The notes beneath the pieces were generated by a model, which was not told the DNA's origin, searched no databases, and saw only the letters and a program-made list of their open reading frames with translations. A stretch of 64,000 nt of DNA from Siniperca chuatsi (taxonomy: Eukaryota; Chordata; Actinopteri; Centrarchiformes; Sinipercidae), in NCBI RefSeq assembly GCF_020085105.1, contig NC_058064.1, positions 16,988,823-17,052,822 of the forward strand, written 5' to 3'. A program made the position numbers and the translations under genes. Every line of letters starts with the position of its first letter. Within the stretch, counting starts at the first letter, position 1. Below are positions 6,025-45,185 of this stretch, one piece after another.

Positions 6025-6867
6025 TCAGAGCATGTTCATCCCAGCAGTGAGCTTCTTTTGCCATCGATAGATAACCACCAACACTGAAAAACAAACAGAT
6101 ACTGATTTAAACCAGACAGACAAATAGAAGTGAATCCATAAAACGGCAATGGAAAGAAAAAGATCTTATGTTTGACCTGGATGGGTTTTTAAGGCTAATA
6201 CCAGTGATTTTGGCTTGAAGCTGCCAATAGATGATATTTTGGATTGATATTCAACATCTTGACAATATTTCTGACATCATCTACAGTATATCCTATTGCC
6301 TTATTGCTCCAGTCTTGTGCTTGTGTTGCATTTTGTTCTGTCAACCCTCTGCTTGTTTTGTCTGCTGACTAACTGCCTCAGCCCGTAGGCTTTAATTGCA
6401 GAATCGTATTGCCTCCTGCCATTAGACAGTAAAGACTGTTTCTACTCTTTATACTTTGGAGTCCTCCTTCCAGTACTACACCTGTCACTGTCAGAGTGGA
6501 AAAGCTTCTCAGTTTGTATTTTTACCACCATGGGATGCCTAGATTCTATTGAAAGTAGTAGAAAACAATCCTTTACCATAATCATACACAATGATATGAA
6601 ATCTAAAGAGAAACTTGTTAAAATAAATTAAAGTTCAGGTTTTCATATAAACAGCAGGTGTCGAAATGATTGCATTGATGTATATGATGATAAATGTAGA
6701 CTTCACTGTATATATCAGAGAGACAACACTGACTGGACCAAAATCACTTCCTGTCAAGTGTACTTACCAACAATAATACAGGGTATCAGCACAATACGCA
6801 GTATCAGAAGGACCTGATCTAATAAAGATGGAGGCCCTAGGGTTACTGCCTTGTCACCATATGTTAT
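6025..6867 (-). CDS. Left plexin transmembrane exon and terminal exon with early stop
   Basis: Exon 15 (6768-6867) encodes the end of the ectodomain (ITYGDKAVTL) and the membrane segment. Against the right copy it lacks one codon, is about 75% identical in DNA, and carries Asp-Gln and Arg within the hydrophobic run. Exon 16 (6025-6083) starts after a strong acceptor (tttgtttttcag). It encodes VLVVIYRWQKKLTAG and then MNML followed by TGA, aligned with the right copy's [20 protein letters not shown]. Plexin similarity ends at the stop. The two exons are separated by 684 bases, against 126 in the right copy. Confidence 0.85.

Positions 6868-45185: not shown

Follow-up and report, generated by a model that had tools for sequence, protein, structure and literature searches.

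The window (i.e. the whole stretch of 64,000 nucleotides of Siniperca chuatsi DNA that was analysed) lies on contig C23, of 23,668,553 bases in a genome of 719 Mb. It contains two plexin-C1 genes on either side of a spacer, with a distance of 2.6 kb between their ATG codons (Table 1). Splice models and translations bear out the initial annotation of both genes in exon number, coordinates and length, as well as their head-to-head arrangement with the left gene on the minus strand and the right gene on the plus strand. All introns of the left gene are GT-AG and internal stops are absent, and the frame ends at a TGA codon (6025-6027) in the first cytoplasmic exon. Exon 26 of the right gene has a GC donor, and its remaining introns are GT-AG. 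On omission of exon 11 the right product is identical to NCBI Siniperca chuatsi plexin-C1 isoform X2 (P0001), which skips that exon.

Table 1. Features of the plexin-C1 locus, in window coordinates.
Feature	Position	Strand	Basis
Left gene: GAP-less plexin-C1-like, 16 coding exons, 926 aa	6025..17252	-	Splice model, translation; tail class also found in 35 database proteins
Left exon 1: sema region, N-terminal portion; signal peptide seen by inspection	16257..17252	-	Ka 0.023, Ks 0.017 vs right exon 1
Left exons 2-14: remaining ectodomain (end of sema, PSI, IPT)	7127..15625	-	13/1626 sites differ from right copy
Left exon 15: membrane segment with Arg898 (codon 6798-6796)	6768..6867	-	75-78% identity to right exon 15
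Left exon 16: helix end, cytoplasmic stub of ~13 residues (RWQ...), stop	6025..6083	-	Splice model; tail class comparison
Dispersed repeat directly downstream of left stop	5800..5971		~40 further copies among matches scored (40 of 292 candidates)
Right gene: full-length plexin-C1, 31 coding exons, 1524 aa	19846..45185	+	Equals P0001 once exon 11 is omitted
Right exon 15: membrane segment, Arg absent	32661..32763	+	Sequence comparison
Right exons 17-31: juxtamembrane part, RBD, GAP	33088..45185	+	PF08337 1.8e-155, PF20170 3.6e-31
Left arm of inverted duplication, homogenised except intron 1 and insertions	7073..17367		Self-blastn
Right arm of inverted duplication, homogenised except intron 1 and insertions	19731..32514		Self-blastn
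Left intron 1: non-homogenised island with no alignment to right intron 1 (20863-22161)	15626..16256	-	Intron alignment
Spacer between both genes	17368..19730		Self-blastn

A direct repeat of ~250 bp occurs twice in the spacer (17556-17812 and 19157-19412), and a third, partial copy lies in the right gene (33903-34004). Transposon remains include a transposase fragment, presumably Tc1-like, at 45560-45941 (-). There is also a reverse-transcriptase frame (PF00078) at 52615-53241 (+), and a zf-RVT-like frame below the Pfam cut-off at 29569-30138 (+), inside right intron 11.

The left product comprises a plexin-C1 ectodomain, one membrane helix and a cytoplasmic stub of ~13 residues devoid of RBD, GAP or tyrosine. 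Pfam reports only PSI and TIG domains for it, with neither RBD nor GAP; for the right product it reports PSI, TIG, Plexin_RBD and Plexin_cytopl, using a model of that product in which one small exon (exon 26) was wrong. The Pfam Sema model was reported for neither product, and a profile of 20 fish plexin-C1 sequences matches human Plexin-C1 (6vxk) over profile positions 89-1521. The left gene therefore has a plexin-type ectodomain (sema, PSI, IPT), which is 97% identical to that of the right gene and of the same family as full-length plexin-C1 (human 6vxk; zebrafish cytoplasmic part 4m8m). Unlike full-length plexin-C1 it lacks the cytoplasmic RBD and RasGAP, and its membrane segment is distinct. 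With the stop ~13 residues past the helix, its earlier description as a membrane plexin without a GAP holds.

The two arms of the inverted duplication, which start 115 bp upstream of each ATG in self-blastn, align in pieces of 96-99% identity that include introns 2-13 but not intron 1 or several insertions. In introns 2, 10 and 11 the insertions leave 22-34% of the shorter copy unaligned. Exon 1 is 97.9% identical between the copies, with two in-frame indels. Exons 2-14 differ at 0.8% of their 1626 sites, and introns 2-13, where they can be aligned, at 62 of 5475 (1.1%; Fisher p 0.27). The identity collapses within intron 14, immediately ahead of the membrane exon. Intron 14 is alike over 54 bp only, intron 15 cannot be aligned, and exon 16 is 73% identical. 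Ks between left and right is 0.017 in exon 1 and in exons 2-14 alike, and 0.31 in exons 15-16 (~40 synonymous sites). Ka/Ks for exons 15-16 is 0.86 on few sites, which by itself is no sign of constraint.

We note that intron 1 is unalignable though the flanking exons 1 and 2 are 98-99% identical, so that it forms an island outside the homogenisation. An old duplication would explain the pattern in the window if its ectodomain part was homogenised recently on either side of intron 1, with the intron itself left untouched. A single recent partial duplication was rejected, as it does not account for the old tail (i.e. Ks of 0.31 in exons 15-16).

Between exons 2-14 of the two copies there are seven nonsynonymous and six synonymous changes, the former somewhat below neutral expectation (7/13, p 0.048). 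In exon 1 there are 17 and 4 respectively, and the density of nonsynonymous changes is higher than in exons 2-14 (p 0.001). Positive selection in exon 1 was considered and rejected, since 17 of 21 is what neutrality predicts (p 0.80). The ectodomain differences cluster at residues ~150-220 of the sema region (16608-16805 on the minus strand, 20293-20511 on the plus strand). The bin of residues 151-200 has 76% identity and two indels, compared with 96-100% identity in the other ectodomain bins of the left/right pair. It is also the bin that is most variable between species (45-48%).

The initial annotation argued from the open frame and the consensus splice sites that the left gene is not a dead copy. 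This conclusion is most likely correct, but the reason given is weak because exons 1-14 have recently been overwritten together with most introns. Introns 2-13 and exons 2-14 are near-identical between the copies, and there has therefore been little time for frames or splice sites to decay. The introns are about as similar as the exons, and intact frames were thus rejected as proof of function. The left gene might then be a dead copy confined to this lineage, i.e. a partial duplicate whose frames are intact only through youth. This would fit the like divergence of exons 2-14 and introns 2-13, the preponderance of nonsynonymous changes in exon 1, and the repeat directly behind the left stop. 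It fits less well with the changes in exons 2-14, which are tilted to synonymous. The better evidence comes from the tail and its stop, which are conserved across species as described below.

Another locus was considered as the source of the left tail and rejected; the plexin on contig C10 at 21.13 Mb is only distantly similar. A DNA search of the genome with the left tail returned only the tail itself and the dispersed repeat among the matches scored (40 of 292 candidates), although this search missed even right exon 15 (~75% identical) and is hence blind to other diverged copies.

Proteins related to the left product were taken as the best 120 of 269 matches to it. Of these 115 were aligned with the two window products, giving 117 rows; P0089, P0092, P0107 and P0120 were left out because of odd or incomplete tails, and P0001 was replaced by the window's own model. 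The rows fall into four classes, first assigned by eye from the tails and then checked by a tree without the Arg column. Class F is full-length, class S is short with the left-gene kind of membrane segment and stub, class S2 is short with another helix and is found in cichlids, and class T is short with a helix of the full-length type. Among the matches listed there are 62 F, 36 S, 9 S2 and 10 T rows. All the species are presumably percomorphs. Those other than Siniperca are known here as database proteins alone, mostly predictions, and the presence of a form in a species is a lower bound.

Class S consists of 35 database proteins and the left product, from at least 29 species labels (28 of them named) among the matches listed. 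The tail has the rough consensus YGDKTVxLGPPSLLHQVLLxLRxLLIPC...LVIICRWQKKLTAEMNKL-stop. Among these matches the tryptophan of the stub is present in 29/29 species labels, the stop lies exactly 11 residues past the last (shared) tryptophan in 31/36 proteins, and tyrosine is absent after the tryptophan in all 36. The Siniperca left tail is an ordinary member of the class, being 77% identical to the Trachinotus short tail and 56% identical to that of its own right gene. A dead copy is very improbable when set against this old tail, whose class is common to at least 28 other species labels with the stop mostly at the same place. Neither disabling lesions nor lost conservation, the marks of a pseudogene, are found; the frame is open, the splice sites are consensus, and the tail class and stop are shared with other species. 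It is this conservation that supports the reading of the left gene as live.

The species with class S belong to at least four clades, i.e. Eupercaria, Pelagiaria, Anabantaria and Ovalentaria (lineage checked for one species each). The initial annotation had suggested a search for the inverted pair in related fishes. Both forms occur in at least 14 species, the inverted orientation being read in the Siniperca window only. In 11 of the 13 other species having both, the two forms are on equally long contigs; in Scomber scombrus the sizes differ, and for Anabas one is not given. The short and full-length genes are thus probably linked in those 11 species. For 47 of the 62 F rows no class-S row of the species concerned is among the 117 aligned; in these species the short gene may be lost, unannotated, or beyond the best 120 of 269. 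Two further searches were made. A search with the tail region of P0002 matched 21 of 27 candidates, and since it reaches near tails only it says nothing on absence elsewhere. A protein search with P0114 (best 120 of 269 matches) is too narrow a basis for absence outside percomorphs. The extra matches from these searches (P0121-P0133) were inspected and left out of the counts.

Near-identical inverted arms are a known risk in genome assembly. A false inverted duplication here, combined with mis-predicted isoforms in other species where most proteins are predictions, would be an artefact that mimics a gene pair. The two Siniperca copies differ, however, by their old tails, by the unalignable intron 1 and by several insertions, and the equally long contigs in 11 of 13 species also speak against such an artefact. 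In addition two entries look like spliced transcripts, i.e. P0052 of class S, with 920 aa, and the full-length P0005, with 1520 aa, since their contigs of 4846 and 5398 bases are too short to include the usual introns; they also give slight evidence of expression. An artefact is the least probable of the explanations that we have considered.

The relationship between the two forms is quite different in the ectodomain and in the tail. When a class-S protein is compared with the full-length protein of its own species (19 pairs, one of which, at 0.65, is probably not from one species) the mean identity is 0.895 in the ectodomain and 0.479 in the tail. For class S in different species the values are 0.665 and 0.613 (622 pairs), and for full-length proteins in different species 0.634 and 0.594 (1890 pairs). 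Profiles of 18 pairs from 14 species place the last bin (helix and stub) at 35-65% identity in all 18, with most ectodomain bins above 85%. Not all of the ectodomain is homogenised in every pair. In Thunnus, Scomber, Trachinotus, Archocentrus and one Dicentrarchus copy the later ectodomain is near the between-species level, and the edge of homogenisation therefore varies.

The same disparity is seen in phylogenetic trees. The two main trees were calculated from 30 of the 117 rows, i.e. the S and F rows of the 14 species with both, leaving out the isoforms P0035 and P0058 and the S2 and T rows. In the tail tree (53 columns) the 16 S rows and 14 F rows lie on separate sides with support of 100/99. 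In the ectodomain tree (a quick tree) S and F are grouped by species in 14/14 cases, and a class-S clade is rejected with p-AU of 2.6e-69. When all 117 rows were used for the tail and the Arg column was removed, the 36 S rows were still split from the 62 F rows with support of 98. Counted against all other rows in that tree class S requires 2 changes, and class T is scattered among F (8 changes).

Taken alone, the grouping by species in the ectodomain tree would fit a history in which each lineage recently duplicated and truncated its plexin-C1, with no old short gene at all, and the ten class T proteins with a helix of the full-length type may be such cases. Repeated truncation would not, however, place the class-S helix and stub in one group, with the support of 100/99 and 98 given above, and we consider it a most unlikely account of class S. 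The comparison of the proteins indicates instead that the short and full-length ectodomains undergo concerted evolution, while helix and stub are kept apart. From the discordance of the trees, and from the limits of the homogenised tracts (at intron 1 and within intron 14), it appears that gene conversion or an equivalent exchange keeps the ectodomains alike. If class T includes short genes in which conversion has reached the helix, as is possible for some of them, the statement that the helix is kept apart would carry less weight.

Near-identical ectodomains, different membrane and cytoplasmic parts and linked genes are the features of paired receptors, and this is what is found in the window. 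The first two features are seen in 14/14 species with both forms, and linkage is probable in 11 of the 13 species other than Siniperca. We therefore propose, with a probability of roughly 80% and leaving its output aside, that the left gene encodes a conserved partner of plexin-C1, old in origin and lacking the GAP, i.e. one member of a paired receptor. A duplicate of plexin-C1 would have lost the RBD and RasGAP, keeping the ectodomain with a helix of its own and a short stub. Gene conversion or an equivalent exchange would then keep the short ectodomain copied alike with that of full-length plexin-C1, so that both proteins would probably bind the same semaphorin. Sema7A is reported to be a ligand of mammalian plexin-C1. 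On binding, the short form might compete with or join the signalling receptor and so give a different output.

The nature of that output may be indicated by the arginine in the membrane helix. In the left product Arg898 sits ~6 residues into a hydrophobic stretch of 21 residues. Across the 117 rows the residue at this column is arginine in 31/36 S proteins, 0/62 F, 0/9 S2 and 0/10 T, among the matches listed. The member without a signalling domain thus generally carries a basic residue in its helix. By species label arginine is present in 26/29 of class S among these matches. The exceptions are cysteine in three Thunnus isoforms, leucine in Clinocottus and glycine in Mugil. On the tail tree the distribution requires four changes, which fits one gain and three losses. 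Beyond the 117 rows arginine is found in Poecilia formosa and Anableps, histidine in Poecilia mexicana, and cysteine in one Salarias form.

Arginine near the outer end of a helix, where Arg898 also lies, is the position for coupling to FcR-gamma. In the Siniperca genome four exons match the TCR-zeta family and encode an LDG motif within the helix; we take these to be FcR-gamma/CD3-zeta-like. The arginine could therefore recruit an adaptor of this kind through an acidic membrane residue, whereby semaphorin binding would become ITAM signalling. We rank adaptor coupling first among the outputs, at just short of an even chance. It would not be universal, since arginine is missing in 5/36 S and 9/9 S2 proteins.

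Ranked second, and the less probable of the two, is a membrane-bound decoy or dominant negative, as envisaged in the initial annotation. The short protein would then bind semaphorin, or pair with full-length plexin-C1 in unproductive dimers, with no signal; the paired-receptor core is common to both outputs. A product without GAP or RBD, and with a stub lacking tyrosine, is suited to such a role, and class-S proteins without arginine have been retained in Thunnus, Clinocottus and Mugil. A semaphorin is reported to induce the active plexin dimer (PMC7181871), and a short form of plexin-B1 has been proposed as a decoy (PMC1838422). Yet a decoy needs no particular helix, whereas the helix found here is a distinct class with arginine in most members. 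Moreover, it has not been replaced by the full-length helix in the 14 species, though homogenisation often comes close. A decoy or dominant negative is not the sole reading, since the presence of arginine in 31/36 short and 0/62 full-length forms points also to adaptor coupling. The remaining odds fall to other roles, and the short form may for example be a cis-partner for full-length plexin-C1.

The closest parallel is the SIGLEC11/SIGLEC16 pair of primates, also head-to-head, in which ~9 kb separate the genes. Conversion around the ligand-binding exon is reported there for every primate examined, with similar glycan preference in the hominids analysed; one member has an ITIM, and the other is without motifs and uses an ITAM adaptor (PMC5701461). 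By analogy the two plexin-C1 forms would recognise one semaphorin, with a different output from the short form. The SIGLEC pair are Ig-type lectins that differ by ITIM versus adaptor, whereas the fish pair are semaphorin receptors with and without RasGAP, and for these the adaptor step is proposed only. In the CEACAM1/CEACAM3-type system a receptor used by pathogens has close relatives that differ from it in their tails. Gene conversion and recombination keep them alike according to the published account, in which CEACAM3 is termed a decoy receptor (PMC2832619). CEACAM3 has an ITAM-like motif of its own, whereas the fish stubs lack tyrosine. OSCAR and other FcR-gamma-coupled receptors have a short cytoplasmic domain and a membrane arginine, as in the left gene, and OSCAR is reported to couple through Arg231 (R231) (PMC8072347). 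It has no sequence kinship with the left gene, where coupling is a proposal only.

A plexin is already tied to an ITAM adaptor in the case of plexin-A1 with TREM2 and DAP12. Plexin-A1 keeps its GAP and the DAP12 adaptor is held by another receptor, unlike the coupling proposed for short plexin-C1. The initial annotation knew of no natural plexin of this kind. This is too strong for GAP-less plexins in general, since there is a short plexin-B1 form (PMC1838422), and truncated intracellular domains are reported for four sponge plexins (PMC6374515). The former is a shorter product of one gene and the latter are invertebrate genes, and in the accessible parts of these sources neither is described as a pair with a homogenised ectodomain. 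For the pair itself, no description of a full-length and GAP-less plexin-C1 gene pair was found among the titles and abstract openings of the open-access literature. While plexins that lack the GAP are already known, what is new would therefore be a plexin with the architecture of a paired receptor.

We know of no earlier paired-receptor system based on plexins and, to our knowledge, paired receptors with converted ectodomains are known only from immunoglobulin-type and lectin families. If the proposal is correct this would be the first such system built on plexins, and the architecture would extend to semaphorin receptors of the plexin type, in species from four or more percomorph clades. It raises the testable question of whether there is plexin signalling without GAP, through a membrane arginine and adaptor, or an antagonist encoded in the genome. 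In addition these natural swaps, with the same ectodomain and a different helix, bear on the role of the plexin membrane helix.

We may tentatively go one step further, to a proposal slightly less probable than adaptor coupling itself. A percomorph plexin-C1 duplicate would have become an activating receptor of the immune type, dropping the RasGAP and gaining arginine for an ITAM adaptor, with the semaphorin-binding face kept by conversion. Such an activating pair is possibly an answer to pathogens that mimic semaphorins. The viral semaphorin mimic A39R is reported to bind human plexin-C1 (PMC7181871), and pathogen pressure is therefore a possible reason to keep the pair.

Finally we note some other short forms. 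The S2 proteins of cichlids (e.g. P0083, P0085, P0095 and P0093) are also GAP-less and plexin-C1-like, and make up a second group of short forms; their helix is a different one, from which arginine is absent. Cichlids have several short proteins per species, as if a plexin-C1-like family were expanding there. Class T proteins (e.g. P0026, P0030, P0031, P0109 and P0111) have the membrane helix of the full-length type and variable ends. They may have arisen by independent truncation or be short genes that were converted, or their gene models may be incomplete. P0122 from Merluccius polli is a predicted protein of 1406 aa with two plexin-C1 ectodomains in tandem and no GAP domain. It may reflect a plexin-C1 duplication older than the class-S species, or a model that fuses two genes.
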